Shown in pieces: positions 5,444 to 50,818 of a stretch of 64,000 nucleotides of DNA (the stretch's first letter is position 1; each line of letters opens with the position of its first letter). A model generated the notes under the pieces. That model had not been told where the DNA came from and did no database searches. It saw only the letters and a list, made by a program, of their open reading frames with translations. The translations under genes and the position numbers were made by a program. This DNA comes from Candidatus Kuenenia stuttgartensis (GTDB lineage Bacteria; Planctomycetota; Planctomycetia; Planctomycetales; Planctomycetaceae): assembly GCA_945906725.1 (NCBI GenBank), contig CAMDRI010000007.1, positions 1 through 64,000 of the forward strand, given 5' to 3'.

Positions 5444-5453
5444 ACTCTCTCTC

Positions 5454-5524
5454 GTGGGACAGGTTTTGAACCTGCCGGCCCCATTCGCCAGTTCATGGAC
5501 GGGCAGGTTGAAAACCTGCCCCAC
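5454..5524. repeat. Palindromic intergenic repeat (CAGGTTTT-type)
   Basis: The left arm at 5454-5476 (GTGGGACAGGTTTTGAACCT plus GCC) and the right arm at 5502-5524 are inverted copies matching at 21 of 23 positions, with a 25-base loop. Each arm also contains a small internal palindrome (AGGTTttgAACCT). It lies between two plus-strand genes and ends 5 bases before the transporter ATG, where it displaces any ribosome binding site. I recognise this type as a dispersed planctomycete repeat, from memory only. Confidence 0.75.
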
Positions 5525-5529
5525 GATTC

Positions 5530-7814: not shown

Positions 7815-9230
7815 ATGACTCAATCCGCAGACAAACCTGAACTCCCCGGCACCGGCATCCGCGTCTTGATCGTGGATGACGACGAAGCTCATGCTCAGGC
7901 CGTAGGCGAAAGCCTGGAACGTGTCGGCTACGAATGCACGGTCGCCGGTTCCGGCGAAACGGGACTCAAGCTGATCGAGAAAGAGAATTTTGATGTCGTC
8001 GTCACCGACTTGCGGATGGGCGAGATCGACGGACTGACGTTGCTGCGACGCACGAAAGAAGAACTGCCGGACGCGGAAGTCATCCTGCTGACCGGTCACG
8101 CCTCGGTGCAGTCCGCGCTGGCGGCGGGGCAGGCAGGGGCGTCGATGTATCTGACCAAGCCGCTCGATATCGGCGAACTGCGTGCCTCAGTCGAGAAGGC
8201 TTCGACGCGCGTGCGGCTCATCCGACAGAACACGGAACTCGCGCGGCGGCTCAACGAGAAATTTGGCTTCGAGGGAGTCATTGGCAACAGCCCGTCGATG
8301 CGGAAGGTGATCGATCAGCTCAAGCACGTCTCGAACATGAACACGACCGTGCTGATCCTCGGTGAAAGCGGCACCGGCAAAGAACTGGTCGCCCGCGCGT
8401 TGCACCAAAACAGCGATCGTAAAAACAAGCCGTTCGTCCCCGTGAATATCTCCGCGTTGCCGGAGAGCATTCTGGAAAGCGAACTGTTCGGCCACGAAGC
8501 CGGCTCGTTCACCGGCGCGATGAGCAAACGCATTGGAAAATTCGAGTACGCCAACGGCGGCACGCTGTTCCTCGATGAGGTCGGCGAGATGCCGGTCGAT
8601 ACGCAGATCAAACTGCTGCGAGTTCTCGAAAACCGCCGGATCACGCGCGTCGGCAGCAACGACGAAGTCGAGGTCAACGTCCGACTCGTCGCCGCTACGA
8701 ATGCCGACCTCAAGGAGTCGGTCGCCAGCGGAAAATTTCGCGAAGACCTGTATTTTCGCCTGAACGTCGTCCGCATCACGCTACCGCCGCTGCGCGAACG
8801 AGTCGCCGACATCCCGCTGCTCATCGACCACTTCCGCAAGCTGCTGTCGGAAAATCACGGCCGCGAAGTCCCAAACATCTCGCGAGCTGCCCGCCACGCG
8901 CTCGTGACCTACGACTGGCCGGGCAACATCCGGCAATTGAAGAACACCCTCGAAAGCATGTTGGTCAGCGACATCGACGGCCTGCTGGATCTCGATGACC
9001 TCCCCGAAGAAATCCGCCCAGCCCCCGGCTCAATCCCCGAAACGGAACTCGGCGAGTTGGTCTTCGGAGCCGATCAACTCATCGGCAAGAAACTGGAAGA
9101 GGTCGAGAAGTACTACATCCAACGTGCGCTGGAAGTCACCAAAGGCAACCGCGAAGAGGCCGCGATGCTACTGGGCATCGGCGAGCGCACGCTGTACCGC
9201 AAGATCAAAGAGTATCAATTGAAAGAGTAG
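7815..9230 (+). CDS. NtrC-family sigma-54-dependent response regulator
   Basis: A 471-residue regulator with a receiver domain ([11 protein letters not shown], phosphoacceptor in [13 protein letters not shown], conserved lysine in [10 protein letters not shown]), an AAA+ domain (Walker A GESGTGKE, Walker [14 protein letters not shown]) and a Fis-type helix-turn-helix at the C-terminus ([20 protein letters not shown]). The sigma-54 contact loop reads GSFTGA instead of the consensus GAFTGA. The track ORF begins at 7266 inside the kinase gene; the receiver domain dictates the ATG at 7815. The stop codon lies inside the left arm of a palindrome (9226-9309). Targets are unknown; neighbouring transport genes are candidates. 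Confidence 0.93.
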
Positions 9231-9309
9231 GTCAGGCTTTCCAGCCTGACCCGAACGCTTTACCCGGCGTCGATTCCGCAACGGGTCAGCCTGGAAAGGC
9301 TGACCTACT
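9226..9309. repeat. Palindromic repeat supplying stop codons to both convergent genes
   Basis: The arms AGTAGGTCAGGCTTTCCAGC plus CTGACCCG (9226-9253) and its inverted copy (9282-9309) match at 26 of 28 positions. The TAG ending the NtrC-type gene (9228-9230) lies in the left arm. The TAG ending the DUF1080 gene (9305-9307, minus strand) lies in the right arm. It probably acts as a bidirectional terminator-like stem, although no long U-tract follows on either side. Confidence 0.8.
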
Positions 9310-14960: not shown

Positions 14961-16670
14961 ATGGCTTCGCGACGCTTGGGGCAAATATTGGTCGATCTCG
15001 GCCACATCACCGAGGATCAACTCTGGGACATTTTGGAAGAACAAAAAAAGAGTCCAGGAGAAATCATCGGCCGAGTTGCGTTGCGCATGAGCCTGGTAAG
15101 CGAATCGCAGATTACCGAGGCGCTCGCTGAACAATGGGGAATGGCGGTCGTCAACCTCAAGGAAACTAATATCCCGCCAAAAGTTTTGGAACTTGTCCCA
15201 CAAACGATGGCCGAGATCTATAAGATCATGCCAATCTCGTTAAAGAATAACATACTTACAGTAGCAATGGCTGATCCACACAACATGGCCGCCCTAGATG
15301 ATTTGCGCAATTTTCTTGGTTACGACGTCAGAGGGGCTGTTTCTAATCACCAAGACGTTGAAGAGGCAATCACCCGACATTATGCAGACAAAGAAGATAG
15401 CATTGAAGATGTAATCGGAAAGATGGAAGAAGAATTCCCCGAGGAGAGGGGCAAGGAAGGTGCTTACGATATTGGCTCAGAAGATGAACTCGTAAACTCC
15501 GCACCGATCCGCAAATTGCTGAATATGGTGCTGTTGTTGGCTATTCGCGACCAAGCCAGCGACATTCACTTCGAGCCATTTGAAGATGAATTCAAAATTC
15601 GTGTCAAAGCAGATGGTGTTCTGTACGAAATGGTTCCTCCTCCTCGCCATTTGGCGAATGCTATTACCACACGTATTAAAGTGATGGCAAATTTAGATAT
15701 CGCAGAAAGGCGACTTCCGCAAGACGGCCGAATTGAATTGAACGTTGGAGGAAACTCAGTCGATCTTCGTGTCAGTGTTTTGCCGACGATGTTTGGCGAG
15801 TCCGTCGTGATGCGAATACTGGATCGAACAGTTGTGCAGTTGGATTTGAACAAAATCGGACTAGATGCAACAACCCTGTCTCGGTTTCGGCAATGTTTAC
15901 ATACTCCAAACGGCATTGTTTTAGTGACGGGACCTACAGGGAGCGGAAAGACGACCACACTCTATTCCGCCTTGAACGAACTCAACGACATTGAGACAAA
16001 GATCATCACCACCGAGGATCCAGTCGAGTATGAAATCGAGGGACTCCTACAGATACCTGTGAATCATGATATTGATGTCACCTTTGCCAACGTATTACGT
16101 GCCATCTTGCGACACGATCCGGATATCATCTTGGTTGGCGAAATTCGTGATTATGAAACTGCTGAAACTGCTATCCAAAGTGCGCTGACCGGGCATTTGG
16201 TGTTTAGCACGCTGCATACAAATGACGCACCTTCCACCGTTACTCGCCTGCGCGACATGGGCATCGCGCCGTTCATGATTACAGCTACAGTTGAAGCCAT
16301 TTTGGCGCAACGTCTAGTTCGCCGCATCTGTAGTGAATGTCGTACTGAGTTTGAACCCAGCGACGAGTTACTGATGGAACTCCAACTTCCAATCGCCCAG
16401 GCCCGCCAGTATCGGTTTTATTATGGAAAAGGCTGCGCTCGATGTAACAACAGCGGATACAAAGGTCGGTGTGGCCTCTACGAATTGATGAATATCACGG
16501 ATGATATTCGTGACATGATTGCGGCCAACGCATCCTCCGATGAACTCCGAAACATGGCTCGCAGCCAAGGAATGACAACTCTGCGAGAGGCGGGACTAAA
16601 ATTGATTTTTGATGGCGTAACCACCATTGACGAGGTGGTGCGAGAGACCGTCATGGAAGACGTTGAATAA
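14961..16670 (+). CDS. GspE/PilB-type assembly ATPase (second copy)
   Basis: A 569-residue paralogue of the ATPase at 11987. It has an MshEN-type N-terminus (LGQILVDLGHITEDQLWDIL), a linker rich in Glu and Asp around residues 145-170, the N2 domain (ASDIHFEPFEDEFKIRVKADG), Walker A GPTGSGKTTTLYSAL, Asp box (TTEDPVEYEIEG), Walker B IILVGEIRDYETAETAI, His box and four-cysteine zinc motif (CSEC and CARC). It lies 62 bases after pilT and 74 bases before the gspF-like gene. Both copies keep every catalytic motif, so they are probably both active, perhaps with separate partners. Confidence 0.93.
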   Translation: MASRRLGQILVDLGHITEDQLWDILEEQKKSPGEIIGRVALRMSLVSESQITEALAEQWGMAVVNLKETNIPPKVLELVPQTMAEIYKIMPISLKNNILTVAMADPHNMAALDDLRNFLGYDVRGAVSNHQDVEEAITRHYADKEDSIEDVIGKMEEEFPEERGKEGAYDIGSEDELVNSAPIRKLLNMVLLLAIRDQASDIHFEPFEDEFKIRVKADGVLYEMVPPPRHLANAITTRIKVMANLDIAERRLPQDGRIELNVGGNSVDLRVSVLPTMFGESVVMRILDRTVVQLDLNKIGLDATTLSRFRQCLHTPNGIVLVTGPTGSGKTTTLYSALNELNDIETKIITTEDPVEYEIEGLLQIPVNHDIDVTFANVLRAILRHDPDIILVGEIRDYETAETAIQSALTGHLVFSTLHTNDAPSTVTRLRDMGIAPFMITATVEAILAQRLVRRICSECRTEFEPSDELLMELQLPIAQARQYRFYYGKGCARCNNSGYKGRCGLYELMNITDDIRDMIAANASSDELRNMARSQGMTTLREAGLKLIFDGVTTIDEVVRETVMEDVE

Positions 16671-16744
16671 AGAACAAAACCAAGGCGTGATCCCAGTGCG
16701 GCCAAAGTGTTGGCATTTTTTCCCAAGGCAAACAGAGGTCAGCC

Positions 16745-17998
16745 ATGCCGGTATATCAGTACGAGGCGATGGACAATACTGGAACTGAGGTCAAGGACAC
16801 CATCGAAGCTGGCTCCGAAGCCGAAGCTCAGCAGAAGATTAAGGAACAGGGTTTCTTCGTCACCAAGATCTCCGAGAAGGGGCGAGGCGGTAAGAAGAAG
16901 GAAACCGAGAAGAAGAAAAAGCCAGCGAGCGGCCCAAGGAAAAAGAAAGGGTTTTCGTTCGGATCAGTAAAGGGAAAACATCTTTGCGCTTTTACTCGCC
17001 AACTTTCGACACTTCAGGACGCAGGATTGCCCATTTTAAGAAGTCTGAAAATCCTCGAGGGACAATCAAAGCCCGGAGTGCTGAAAAACTCTTTGATTGG
17101 GGTGATTGAAGACATCGAATCCGGCAACACGCTATCGGAAGCCATGTCCAAGCAGCCGAAGGCATTTGACGGCCTTTACGTCAACATGGTGAAAGCAGGT
17201 GAGGCCGGTGGGGCGTTGGAAATCATTTTGCAGCGTTTGGCCGAGTTTAAGGAGCGAGCCCAGAGCCTCAAGCGTAAGGTACAAGGCGCGATGATTTATC
17301 CCTGTGCGGTCATTTTCGTAGCAACCGCAATCGTAGGATTTATCATGTACTACATCATTCCGAAGTTTAAGCAGATCTTCCTGGGCTTTGGGACGGAGCT
17401 TCCCGGAATCACCGTCATGCTGATCAACATGAGCGACATCGTGGTGAGGTACTTCTACTTGTTCCCGGCAATCCCGATCGGCTTTTGGTTGATTATAAAA
17501 ATCATACGAAAGAACAAAACAGGCGAGTTTGTCTCGGACTGGCTGGTGCTAAAGATTCCTTTGATGGGCCAAATTCTCAGCAAGTCAATCGTGGCTCGAA
17601 CCATGCGAACGCTGGGAACGCTCGTGGCCTCTGGTGTGCCAATCTTGGAAGGCTTGACCATTGCACGTGACACGGCAGGCAACGCGGTGTTTCGAAAAGC
17701 ATTCGACAACGTTTATGCCGCCATTCGTGAAGGCGAGTCCATCGCGACCCCGTTAAGGGAGGCGAGAATCGTGGACGATATCGTGGTCAACATGATCGAC
17801 GTCGGAGAAGAAACCGGTGCCTTGGACAATATGATGTACAAGATCGCCGATGTGTATGACGAGGAAGTTTCGGTACTGGTCGATGGCTTGGTCAGCCTGC
17901 TGGAACCGCTGATGGTCGTCATTCTGGGTTTCATCGTCGGCTTCATCGTGATCGCGTTGTTCATGCCGCTAGTCAAACTGCTGAACGATCTGTCGTGA
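16745..17998 (+). CDS. GspF/PilC-type inner-membrane platform protein
   Basis: A 417-residue polytopic protein that forms the membrane platform on which E-type ATPases act. The N-terminus MPVYQYEAMDNTGTEVKDTI is typical. It is followed by a lysine-rich insertion (about residues 42-70, KKKETEKKKKPASG) and two GspF domains with conserved ARQLSTL-like (TRQLSTLQDAGLPILRSLKI) and RTMRTLGTLVASGVPILEGL segments. Three strong transmembrane helices are visible, and the end VIALFMPLVKLLNDLS is the usual terminal helix. There is one GspF for two E ATPases in this window. Confidence 0.93.
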   Translation: MPVYQYEAMDNTGTEVKDTIEAGSEAEAQQKIKEQGFFVTKISEKGRGGKKKETEKKKKPASGPRKKKGFSFGSVKGKHLCAFTRQLSTLQDAGLPILRSLKILEGQSKPGVLKNSLIGVIEDIESGNTLSEAMSKQPKAFDGLYVNMVKAGEAGGALEIILQRLAEFKERAQSLKRKVQGAMIYPCAVIFVATAIVGFIMYYIIPKFKQIFLGFGTELPGITVMLINMSDIVVRYFYLFPAIPIGFWLIIKIIRKNKTGEFVSDWLVLKIPLMGQILSKSIVARTMRTLGTLVASGVPILEGLTIARDTAGNAVFRKAFDNVYAAIREGESIATPLREARIVDDIVVNMIDVGEETGALDNMMYKIADVYDEEVSVLVDGLVSLLEPLMVVILGFIVGFIVIALFMPLVKLLNDLS

Positions 17999-19238: not shown

Positions 19239-19342
19239 TCGTTCAGATTTCGTTTGCCACGGCTGGCTCGGCCATGTGTCGCTGACGAGTTCGCTCGGTT
19301 GAAACCGCTACGACACACGACCGAGTGGAATCGAGGTTGACT

Positions 19343-20698
19343 ATGAACTCTTCGCATGCGGCGTCTGGTCGAAGTGAGACTTCGACGGTCCGTTTCAGAC
19401 TACGCGCAGCGTTCACGCTGATCGAGATTCTGATCGTGATTTCGATCATCATCCTCTTGGTGACGATGATGGGCGCGGTTATTGGAAACTCGGTCAAGAA
19501 GGCTCGCGAGGCGGCGACGGCGACGCTGATCGAGAAGATCGACAAGTTGTTGGACGAGCGGACGAAGGGTTTCGATCGAGCGACCAAGTCACTGGATTTC
19601 CAGCGGATCATCGCGATTCGCAAGCAGTTGTTGGAGGCGGGTGGCACCTTCGGTGTCTCGCCGAAAGTGTTGTCGGCTGTGGCTCGAAAAGATTTCTTTA
19701 AGGCGAACTTTCCACAGCGATACGCTGACTTGACTGACGTGCTGACGTTTCCGATGGGAAGTACACCAAACGGAGTTCCCGATGCGATTGAATTCGATTC
19801 CACGTTGAAGTCCGAAGACGCGAATGGCAATGGTGCTTTGGATGTTGGCGAGGACACAAATAGCAACGGAGTTTTGGACGGCTACGTGCATGCGAAGCAC
19901 AAGCCGGAGACGGAGAGTTCAGCGCTGCTGTACTACATGCTGACTCGCATGCAAGTGTTTGGCGTGCCTCCAGTCGGCGAGTCAGATTTCAGTACAAGCG
20001 AATATCGTGATACCGACGGAGATGGGTTACTGGAGTTCGTGGATGGCTGGGGCCGACCGTTGCGGTTCTATCGTTGGCCGACGCGGCTACTGAAACCGAA
20101 TGGAATTCGCGGCGCGGATAATCAACCGGGATTTGCAGGGATCAACGACAATCCCGAGTTGAACAACACCGTGGACGATTTTTTGGAGTTCGGCAAGGTC
20201 AGTTCTGACGACATCACGGTCTTGCCATCTCAAAGGGAGATCGCCGGGCATCTGATCGTGGGCTTGCCGAGCGGCCCTGTGTTTTCCGGTCAATGGGATT
20301 CGCTCAGTGAAGACCCGGATGATCCGTATGGCTTGATCTCGACGGAGATCAAACGGCTGTTTCTCCAGAGCAACGGAGCAACTAACGTGACAACGGGACC
20401 GGCCGGATTCAATGAGATGAATTATCCGACGATCGACACTTACCACACGCCGCTGATTATTTCCGTCGGACCGGATGCAGACTTGGGGTTGTTCGAGCCT
20501 TACCAAGGAACGGCCTCGGGCGCAAGCGGCGTGGGTGTGCTCGACACAGATCTGGGTATTCTGGCTCAGCCGATTCATGGCCCCGTTGGCCCCTACGACT
20601 TTGGCAATCTGGCTGTGACTCCAAACGGCAATCATGTGATCTCGGCGTTGGGGGACAATATCACGAATCGCAATCGGCGTGCGGGAAGGGGGAAGTGA
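19343..20698 (+). CDS. Pseudopilin, G-like (2), with EF-hand-type loops
   Basis: A 451-residue prepilin-type protein. The cleavage region reads RLRAA|FTLIEILIVISIIILL, with Ala in place of the usual Gly at -1 and Glu at +5 retained. EF-hand-type calcium loops are visible: DANGNGALDVGE, DTNSNGVLDGYV and DTDGDGLLEFVD. The ATG at 19343 with GAGGTTGACT upstream is preferred over the GTG at 19325. The 104-base gap from the previous gene has no clear terminator, and the stop overlaps the region of the next start (1 base apart). It is much larger than known GspG proteins. Confidence 0.83.
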   Translation: MNSSHAASGRSETSTVRFRLRAAFTLIEILIVISIIILLVTMMGAVIGNSVKKAREAATATLIEKIDKLLDERTKGFDRATKSLDFQRIIAIRKQLLEAGGTFGVSPKVLSAVARKDFFKANFPQRYADLTDVLTFPMGSTPNGVPDAIEFDSTLKSEDANGNGALDVGEDTNSNGVLDGYVHAKHKPETESSALLYYMLTRMQVFGVPPVGESDFSTSEYRDTDGDGLLEFVDGWGRPLRFYRWPTRLLKPNGIRGADNQPGFAGINDNPELNNTVDDFLEFGKVSSDDITVLPSQREIAGHLIVGLPSGPVFSGQWDSLSEDPDDPYGLISTEIKRLFLQSNGATNVTTGPAGFNEMNYPTIDTYHTPLIISVGPDADLGLFEPYQGTASGASGVGVLDTDLGILAQPIHGPVGPYDFGNLAVTPNGNHVISALGDNITNRNRRAGRGK

Positions 20699-20699
20699 C

Positions 20700-22145
20700 A
20701 TGAACAGCGTTCATGTCGCTTCGCGGCATAAAAAAGTAGTCGGCACACTCCGTGTGCCGAGTCGGCACGCGGAGTGTGCCGACTACTTTGGCTTCACGCT
20801 GGTGGAGTTGTTGGTCGTGATCACTGTGTTGTTGATTTTAGTGGTGATGACGGTCACCTCGATCGATTTCACGTTTTCGTCGGAGCGGTTGAAAGCGGGT
20901 GCTCGGCAGGTGCAATCGGCGTTGGCGGGCGCACGCGATCGGGCGATCTTCGCCAAGGAACCGCGCGGTTTGCGGTTTTTGGTTGACTCAAGCGATTCAA
21001 CGTCAGTCGAATCTCGCGTTGTCACGAGCATGATTTACATCGGCGCTCCGAGCAATTGGTCGGAAGGTCAGATTCGGCTGGAGCGAGTGGATGCCAATGG
21101 TGACAACATCGCCGAACCAGCCGTCGATACGGACAGCGACGGAACGCTCGACGCAACGGCGGTCATGATCGTCCGAGGCGATGCGCTTTGCGGCTGGTAC
21201 ACCTTGAAAGAGCGTGGCTTTCTGGGGTTGTTTGAGGACCAGAATCTCAACGGCCGATTGGATTCCGGCGAGGATGCAAACGGCAATGGACTTCTGGACC
21301 TCGACGCGCCGCGGATCAAGATTCCGGCGGACGACAACGGTTCGTGGTACACCGTGCTGGTCCTCAGTTCTGGTCCCTACGCAATGACACCGGTAAATCA
21401 GGTGTTGAAATTGGTGACGCCGTATCGCGACCCTGGCACCACTCCGGAGACGAGTGTGGTTGCGTTTCAGAACGGCGGGCCGAATACCTACATCCTGGAA
21501 CTACCGCCGCGCATGCTGCCGGAGGCTCAACCCATCCTGTTGCCGGCCGGAGTTTGTATCGACCTGGATGGTTCGCAGGTGCCACGGAGTTGGCGGTCGT
21601 TCGGCGAGGATCTCAACGACAACGGGGTGTTGAATGGTGGCGAGGACACGAACATGAACGGCCAGTTGGACCGTTCGAGCTATTCCTCGCGAATGGACGT
21701 TTTGTTTTCTCCGCGCGGCATCGTGACCGGTTCAGTGGCCGCCGAGGGTTTGCTGCACTTGTACGTCGCGGAACTCAAAGATGTGCAACGAATTGTCGAC
21801 ATCGGAGTCGACGTGAGCGGGACTGGAAGCGGATCAATGTCTCCTCGGCTTCCGATTCATGGCAACACGCTGTCGTTGGCACGAGTCCCGTTTCAAATCG
21901 TACCGGGGGGGAATCAATTCAGCCCGGAAGAACCGATCGGTCAGCGGACGATCGTTTCGATCTTCACTCAGACGGGCAAAATCTCAGCACATGCGATCGA
22001 TCCCACGGACGGTGAAGACCGAAACGGAAACGGCATGCTCGACCCAGGAGAGGACGTGAATGGCAACGGAATGCTCGATCCTCCGAATGGCTACGCGGAC
22101 GTTCCATTCCTGTTTTCCACTCGAGGCGAGGCGGCCAGCCAATGA
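20700..22145 (+). CDS. Pseudopilin, H-like, with palindrome-encoded leader and calcium loops
   Basis: A 481-residue prepilin-type protein with cleavage site YFG|FTLVELLVVITVLLIL. It is H-like by gene order and by the segment LKAGARQVQSALAGARDRAIF, which matches the GspH/FimT helix. Seven EF-hand-type loops can be read, among them DQNLNGRLDSGE, DANGNGLLDLDA, DRNGNGMLDPGE and DVNGNGMLDPPN. Codons 12-30 are exactly the 57-bp palindrome at 20733-20789. Without them the leader would be MNSVHVASRHKG, a normal short basic leader. The start ATG 20700 follows GGGAAGGGGGAAG. The stop overlaps the next start (ATGA). Confidence 0.85.
   Translation: MNSVHVASRHKKVVGTLRVPSRHAECADYFGFTLVELLVVITVLLILVVMTVTSIDFTFSSERLKAGARQVQSALAGARDRAIFAKEPRGLRFLVDSSDSTSVESRVVTSMIYIGAPSNWSEGQIRLERVDANGDNIAEPAVDTDSDGTLDATAVMIVRGDALCGWYTLKERGFLGLFEDQNLNGRLDSGEDANGNGLLDLDAPRIKIPADDNGSWYTVLVLSSGPYAMTPVNQVLKLVTPYRDPGTTPETSVVAFQNGGPNTYILELPPRMLPEAQPILLPAGVCIDLDGSQVPRSWRSFGEDLNDNGVLNGGEDTNMNGQLDRSSYSSRMDVLFSPRGIVTGSVAAEGLLHLYVAELKDVQRIVDIGVDVSGTGSGSMSPRLPIHGNTLSLARVPFQIVPGGNQFSPEEPIGQRTIVSIFTQTGKISAHAIDPTDGEDRNGNGMLDPGEDVNGNGMLDPPNGYADVPFLFSTRGEAASQ
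20733..20789. repeat. 57-bp palindrome inside a prepilin leader
   Basis: The arms AAAGTAGTCGGCACACTCCG (20733-20752) and CGGAGTGTGCCGACTACTTT (20770-20789) are perfect inverted copies. The 17 bases between them are themselves nearly palindromic. The element occupies exactly 19 codons and keeps the reading frame. It encodes KVVGTLRVPSRHAECADYF. I recognise this as a dispersed planctomycete repeat type, from memory. Confidence 0.85.
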
Positions 22146-50272: not shown

Positions 50273-50818
50273 TCACGCCAACCCGACGCGCAAGCGAGGG
50301 GTTTTGAGCACGGCCTCTCGCTTACGCGTCGGGTTGATTTGGCCGAACAACGTCCGCAAGAACGCCGCAGCTTGTCTCGCAATTCCCGGCTGCGAACTTT
50401 CGCGTGGCCCAGCGATGTTGAGGACTCGAATCGAGTTCGCCTCCAACCAATCGTGAACCGACTGCGTCGTCACGTCACGCAAATCGACCACCAGGCACGG
50501 CCGGCGGTATCGCTCAGCGAACGTTTTGGTCAGCGCGGTTCCGCCACGCAACGATCCCAGCGAAAGAATCAGCGTGCCTTGGGAGTCTTTCACGTTCAAC
50601 GCCGTCCGCTCGGCATAGTTGGCCGTGGGAGATTCTTTCAACGGGTACGACGCGGGGACTGAACCGTCTTCGGCGCGACGTCCTTTCGGACACCAACCAC
50701 CGCACGGGATGCCCAACTCCAAAGCCACATCCAACGCCGCGCGATCGACTCCCGTTTGCCCGCCGGCAACGACTTGCTCCAACCGCCATGCCTTGTGAGT
50801 CGTCCCCGCTGACTTCAT
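50273..50818 (-). CDS. Putative molybdenum carrier protein with repeat-derived C-terminus
   Basis: A 181-residue protein of the MoCo-carrier-like/LOG-type Rossmann fold. VVAGGQTGVDRAALDVALEL, GGWCPKGRRAEDGSVP, SPTANYAERTALNVKDSQGT and LSLGSLRGGTALTKTFAE are typical. The last 20 residues (NPTRKREAVLKTPRLRVGLA) are encoded by the palindrome at 50279-50336 and are not part of the fold. The native end was probably near LRTLFGQ. It is convergent with the MfnF-like gene, 13 bases apart. Confidence 0.78.
   Translation of the reverse strand: MKSAGTTHKAWRLEQVVAGGQTGVDRAALDVALELGIPCGGWCPKGRRAEDGSVPASYPLKESPTANYAERTALNVKDSQGTLILSLGSLRGGTALTKTFAERYRRPCLVVDLRDVTTQSVHDWLEANSIRVLNIAGPRESSQPGIARQAAAFLRTLFGQINPTRKREAVLKTPRLRVGLA
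50279..50336. repeat. Palindromic repeat (CAACCCGACGCG type) encoding a protein C-terminus
   Basis: CAACCCGACGCGCAAGCGAG (50279-50298) and CTCGCTTACGCGTCGGGTTG (50317-50336) are inverted copies at 19 of 20 positions, with an 18-base loop. On the minus strand they encode NPTRKRE...PRLRVGL, a translated repeat I know from several planctomycete proteins. It stands between two convergent genes and may also act as a terminator stem. Confidence 0.82.

Follow-up and report, generated by a model that had tools for sequence, protein, structure and literature searches.

A palindrome in the leader of a GspH-like minor pseudopilin gene is a head-on pair of GTAG-type REP units, of the REPIN/BIME type. Very probably it represents a GTAG-REP dimer of a RAYT-mobilised family, captured in frame by the leader, with other prepilin leaders filled likewise. 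The features of this locus in the window (the whole 64-kb stretch of DNA analysed) are the following:

14961 to 17998, plus strand: GspE/PilB-like ATPase and GspF/PilC-like inner membrane protein of the same cluster
19325 to 20698, plus strand: upstream GspG-like pseudopilin gene, its stop codon lying one base ahead of the H-like ATG
20692 to 20722, plus strand: second hairpin, its arms of 14 nt each, spanning the ribosome-binding site, the ATG and the stop codon of the preceding gene
20700 to 22145, plus strand: GspH-like minor pseudopilin gene (481 aa), whose first eight codons are homologous with those of G001 and G003, the same-genus genomes with the two closest orthologues
20733 to 20789: 57-bp palindrome, the REP dimer with AAA/TTT ends, codons 12 to 30 of the pseudopilin gene
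20736 to 20759, plus strand: REP unit 1, GTAGTCGGCACACTCCGTGTGCCG, GTAG foot and hairpin with TCC loop, from pattern and hairpin scans
20763 to 20786, minus strand: REP unit 2, inverted, GTAGTCGGCACACTCCGCGTGCCG, from the same scans
20790 to 20792, plus strand: GGC, the Gly(-1) of the prepilin peptidase site, assigned from the sequence and the N_methyl motif; the mature FTLVELLVV begins at 20793

The palindrome is the top-scoring one in the window. Its arms (20733-20760 and 20762-20789) have 28 nt each, form 27 of 28 pairs and are separated by 1 nt. Counted from the ATG at 20700, it extends from codon 12 (AAA, 20733-20735) to codon 30 (TTT, 20787-20789), and codon 31, directly 3′ of it, is the GGC of Gly(-1), followed by FTLVELLVV. 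The arm pairing and the reading frame bear out the first-pass annotation, which had described a near-perfect 57-bp palindrome filling exactly codons 12-30, with the frame and Gly(-1) preserved; without the 57 bp, the leader reads MNSVHVASRHKG/FTLVELL, as it had stated. The strong mRNA stem placed there about 30 bases after the start was also found, beginning 33 nt past the A of the ATG. The palindrome is beyond chance, since its DNA fold has z = -14.7 with no shuffle as good, the RNA fold of 20670-20830 reaches -92.4 kcal/mol (z = -9.4), and the arm pattern had 0 matches in 100 shuffles. In Rfam, long-hairpin microRNA and leader models matched below threshold only, and these matches were taken as chance.

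Each arm is itself a small hairpin, GTAG-TC-GGCACAC-TCC-GTGTGCC-G, and the pair of units is described by GTAG-YC-GGCACAC-TCC-GTGTGCC-G, each unit having 24 nt and a 3-nt loop. The two units of the window lie 3 nt apart in inverted orientation, head-on with GTAG outermost, and differ by one base. Both have GTAG at the 5′ foot and, as expected of a GTAG-REP, the short-loop unit falls within 20-40 nt and is dispersed in multiple copies. The mobile core of the palindrome is the GTAG...CTAC segment (20736-20786; 51 bp, 17 whole codons), since the 24-nt GTAG-tagged REP is the conserved unit. In a hairpin-core-only scan of 36 units, the foot, defined as six to three bases before the hairpin core, was G in 35/36, T in 33/36, A in 34/36 and G in 33/36, the loci having been first found with a GTAG-containing pattern and the second units not. 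A/T-rich sequence precedes the foot across these units.

Counting the copies of the arm, as the first-pass annotation had advised, gave about 12 units in the window's own assembly, G000 (5.45 Mb, 268 contigs, 92% complete), so the nucleotide-level repeat does occur elsewhere; a pattern search of this genome, which by its named relatives probably belongs to Planctomycetota, located about eight further places with the window REP. The family has 78 units in G002, 182 in G010 and 430 in G051, and no units were found by pattern scan in G003 or G009, while a reversed-pattern control gave 0 in nearly all genomes scanned. Inverted neighbouring units also occur in G051, G019 and others. A false inverted copy, produced during assembly of a fragmented, probably metagenome-derived genome, is scarcely credible: fold-back artefacts exist and there are 268 contigs, but the units differ by that one base, the frame is intact through the element and dimers of the same anatomy are present in many independent assemblies.

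Two further long palindromes lie between genes of the window, at 5452-5526 and at 9226-9309, the latter made of two GTAG-footed hairpins from a different family (GTAGGTCAGGCTTTCCAGCCTGACC). At 50279-50336, a palindrome (CAACCCGACGCGCAAGCGAGGG...CGCGTCGGGTTG) lies at the 3′ end of a minus-strand reading frame, and similar ones recur in G000.

The host gene is named GspH-like because its match to the GspH model TIGR01708 covers the N-terminal part only (35.3 bits, below the curated cut-off of 80). It carries the type IV prepilin N_methyl motif with Gly(-1) and Glu(+5), in the form G/FTLVE, and PF07963 scores 22.9 bits against a cut-off of 21.2. The ATG at 20700 is supported by the G001 and G003 orthologues, which align with the window over the first eight codons and the ribosome-binding region. 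This alignment speaks against a true start further downstream, for example at GTG 20754 within the palindrome, which is in frame, would give a 12-residue leader before the Gly and would leave the element not fully as leader codons. In addition, no ribosome-binding site is evident before 20754 and no start codon occurs between the palindrome and the Gly codon, and we regard a downstream start as very unlikely.

The orthologues in G001 and G003 (60-62% identical) are without the palindrome. Thus, the search for an element-free allele in close relatives, proposed in the first-pass annotation, succeeded in part: element-free orthologues exist, but the short 11-codon allele was not seen, and the leaders before the Gly have 27 (G001) and 31 (G003) codons. 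As these two leaders are already long, no exact empty site was found in them. Given these lengths, replacement of leader sequence would be as likely as clean insertion, both being equally compatible with the sequences. A short ancestral leader is possible because many other leaders of the prepilin family are as short as the ancestor that had been proposed. The gene has stayed open and, at codons identical in both orthologues, the window-unique changes comprise 31 synonymous and 7 non-synonymous, a ratio that gives no sign of selection after capture specifically. Among 398 genomes of the class, only the window fits a strict pattern with the window REP directly before the GFTL motif. Four other pattern matches (L150-L153) were rejected, the REP being absent from the matched string and, in two, an ATG coming after it. 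A protein-based contig scan yielded only distant relatives.

A second dimer of the window family is captured in frame at about 1560-1620 of L025 (G000 contig 76), where it codes for residues 187-206, within the dimerisation domain of a penicillin-binding protein. Its GTAG...CTAC segment has 59 bp, and therefore the net change must include neighbouring bases, keeping the frame. A third occurs in L026 of G000, a large protein without Pfam match. The earlier statement that such repeats enter coding sequence is sustained, also by the in-frame dimer of the penicillin-binding protein, but calling the locus "direct evidence" overstated the case, since the search turned up no exact empty site. A 464-kb part of G000 contains 56 palindromes belonging to many families, eight of them deep in coding sequence.

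The distribution of palindromes in prepilin genes was surveyed in 226 genes from seven genomes (G000, G010, G008, G001, G003, G019 and G051), with starts set at the nearest ATG at least four codons upstream. Nine palindromes were centred in leaders (8,820 bp) against one in mature parts (205,830 bp; p = 3e-12), so that palindromes are almost absent from the mature parts of these 226 genes. The test without the window case, in the first four genome groups, gave p = 2e-9, and the added genomes G019 and G051 alone provided a weak replication (1 leader vs 0 mature, p = 0.04). In G010, what looked like a REP in a mature part (L179) proved to be a two-mismatch chance match.

Within G000, palindromes of other families were found in the leaders of contig 157 (MRKSEVGIRKAEWKAERNCDFRLPTSDFVRG) and contig 133 (MRGRNHNVATGGSPVRRVEGTGEPPVATRTRAG). 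The K-like leader of one cluster holds one palindrome family in G000 and a different one in both G010 and G008, and is free of palindromes in G003 and G001 (the H-, I- and K-like names follow gene order and weak profile matches, not curated cut-offs). The G000 and G010/G008 palindromes are independent captures at one slot in sister species, and the one shared by G010 and G008 is a single inherited event that predates a species split. An I-like pseudopilin leader of G019, MKRRSRIAFPLRGDEVGTRSVPATLSERRG, contains a lone unit of the window REP family. An alternative start or a partial overlap is possible for contig 133, L270, L281, L285 and the G019 case; the best-supported leader events are those in which no start codon follows the element before the Gly, namely the window, contig 157 and the G010/G008 pair. 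Other leaders, L057/L409 (G019), L050 (G023), and L277 and L270 (G008, G010), contain simple repeats in tandem or inverted order (IRNPKSEIRN, SMFNVQCS, NSEVGERKSG, CKLQIANCN), which resemble captured non-REP repeats.

The leader bias might instead express a general tolerance of N-termini, partly inflated by uncertain starts and unrelated to removal by the peptidase, which we consider a minority possibility. In fact, the first 35 codons of other G000 genes contain 6 palindromes in 30,555 bp, in the 464-kb background from the same genome. One of the six (L169, 12464-13954, minus strand) seems to supply most of the codons of a Sec-type signal peptide (MCRVQSAECKVKSVRVKDLRVFHFVLCTLQSALFILALPGIKTANA). 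Nevertheless, the G000 leaders hold 3 in 1,161 bp (p = 0.0035; p = 0.03 without the window case), an excess of about 13-fold even against this generous N-terminal background, in which starts are probably over-long, and the leader here is anchored by the cleavage motif. We see about even chances that prepilin leaders are a standing safe harbour, where varied mobile palindrome families would settle in frame repeatedly, returning at times to one leader; the length and sequence of leaders would then evolve largely by repeat capture while the mature pilin stays clean.

How the host leader works after capture is a separate matter. Lys or Arg occurs within six residues before the Gly in 161 of the 162 leaders of the genus, the exception being the window leader, in which the element separates RHK from the Gly and ECADYF now precedes it. 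With the basic residues displaced by the element, normal processing at the cleavage site cannot be taken for granted, and the protein may be poorly processed. The first-pass annotation had taken the element to be tolerated in a segment removed by the prepilin peptidase; with this leader alone among the 162 in having no Lys/Arg nearby, that claim went too far, and tolerance is better described as plausible.

The location of the stem, at the junction of two genes, suggests another role. REPs between genes of one operon act on message stability or translation. Regulatory action of REPs inside operons is discussed in PMC3733652. The hairpin could then be kept as a regulator, stabilising the upstream GspG-like message or lowering translation of the minor pseudopilins, its coding location merely following from abutting genes. 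The RNA stem is very stable, no spacer separates the GspG-like and H-like genes, and a second hairpin covers the start codon in G003 too. This second hairpin (20692-20722) has -23.1 kcal/mol, with a comparable one in G003 (-19.3 kcal/mol, partly different pairs) and none in G001, and could couple translation to the upstream gene. On the other hand, the large REP stem is missing from the G001 and G003 orthologues, which makes a conserved regulatory role of it unlikely, and the leaders of other clusters hold unrelated repeat families at different genes, which looks like tolerance. For these reasons retention as a regulator seems improbable to us, and capture with tolerance in the leader is preferred.

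The link of the captured family to a mobile system comes from relatives. RAYT-like proteins with the window REP on both flanks of the gene are encoded in G051 contig 21, G019 contig 512 and G006 contig 21, the last from the same genus as the window genome. They are homologous, with about 217 aa and 58-62% identity, and were named RAYT-like from a weak Y1_Tnp match, a best solved match to 4er8, TnpArep (E 8e-4), and the REP flanks; with NF047646 (REP_Tyr_transpos) they score 67.8 and 72.5 bits, below the curated cut-off of 80. Because such genes flanked by the same REP are present in three relatives, the window family belongs to a known mobile system. No homologue of this transposase was found in G000, a 92%-complete assembly, so that the G000 copies are perhaps remnants, or else the gene may belong to the portion that the assembly lacks. 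The genus commonly carries IS200-like Y1 transposases. Other RAYT loci were rejected as the cognate mobiliser, being without the window REP, and some are flanked by other GTAG REPs. RAYT-like genes flanked by other GTAG hairpin families are L103 (G008), L101 (G009) and L116 (G003), and the genus appears to have several parallel REP systems.

We then propose that the REP family is mobilised by a HuH-type RAYT, which would recognise the GTAG foot with its hairpin in single-stranded DNA. The anatomy of the repeat, the REP-flanked transposases of three relatives and published biochemistry suggest this step; proteins of this kind from E. coli, S. maltophilia and Marinomonas have been shown to cleave GTAG hairpins and to carry out strand transfer on them (PMC8266576). 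One dimer would have entered, or replaced part of, the GspH-like leader, where it became 19 codons because its length is a multiple of three and the frame used contains no stop. The dimer would persist because the leader presumably serves targeting alone, before the prepilin peptidase removes it at Gly/Phe. Repeats of several families have very probably filled other prepilin leaders of G000 and its relatives by the same process.

Insertion with little selection on the residues is naturally looked for in a protein segment that is discarded after synthesis. If the leader bias is true, prepilin leaders would be a nearly neutral recorder of REP movement, capture events could be placed in temporal order (one is common to G010 and G008), and natural variants would allow the role of leader charge and length in processing to be tested. 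Our literature searches found no description of repeats in prepilin leaders, nor of the recurrent use of leaders as a landing place.

GTAG-tagged REPs and REPINs/BIMEs are described by a GTAG foot, a short stem, inverted pairs and a RAYT flanked by the same REP; intragenic REP dimers coding 20-30 residues have been reported, and REP super-families reach Planctomycetes and Verrucomicrobia (PMC3733652, PMC3116915, PMC2817692). The window element resembles them in its GTAG foot, 3-nt loop, inverted pair, many copies and REP-flanked RAYT-like genes, and differs in that the family and its RAYT were matched to none of those published and in the recurrent landing in prepilin leaders. The unit is very like the S. 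maltophilia REP, which has GTAG, an 8-bp perfect stem, a 3-nt loop and a HuH transposase flanked by REPs (PMC8266576). As in the TnpAREP/RAYT systems of E. coli and S. maltophilia, the transposase is REP-flanked, whereas the proteins of the relatives are known from their sequences, at 68-72 bits against the NF047646 cut-off of 80. The Rickettsia RPE, palindromes captured in frame in unrelated protein genes (Ogata and colleagues, as cited in PMC3733652), are similar in the mode of capture only; the host phylum differs, and here there are a GTAG foot, a linked RAYT in relatives and a preference for a protein segment that is cut off. The capture mode is thus known in principle, from RPE and intragenic REPs, and the new part is the recurrent use of prepilin leaders.
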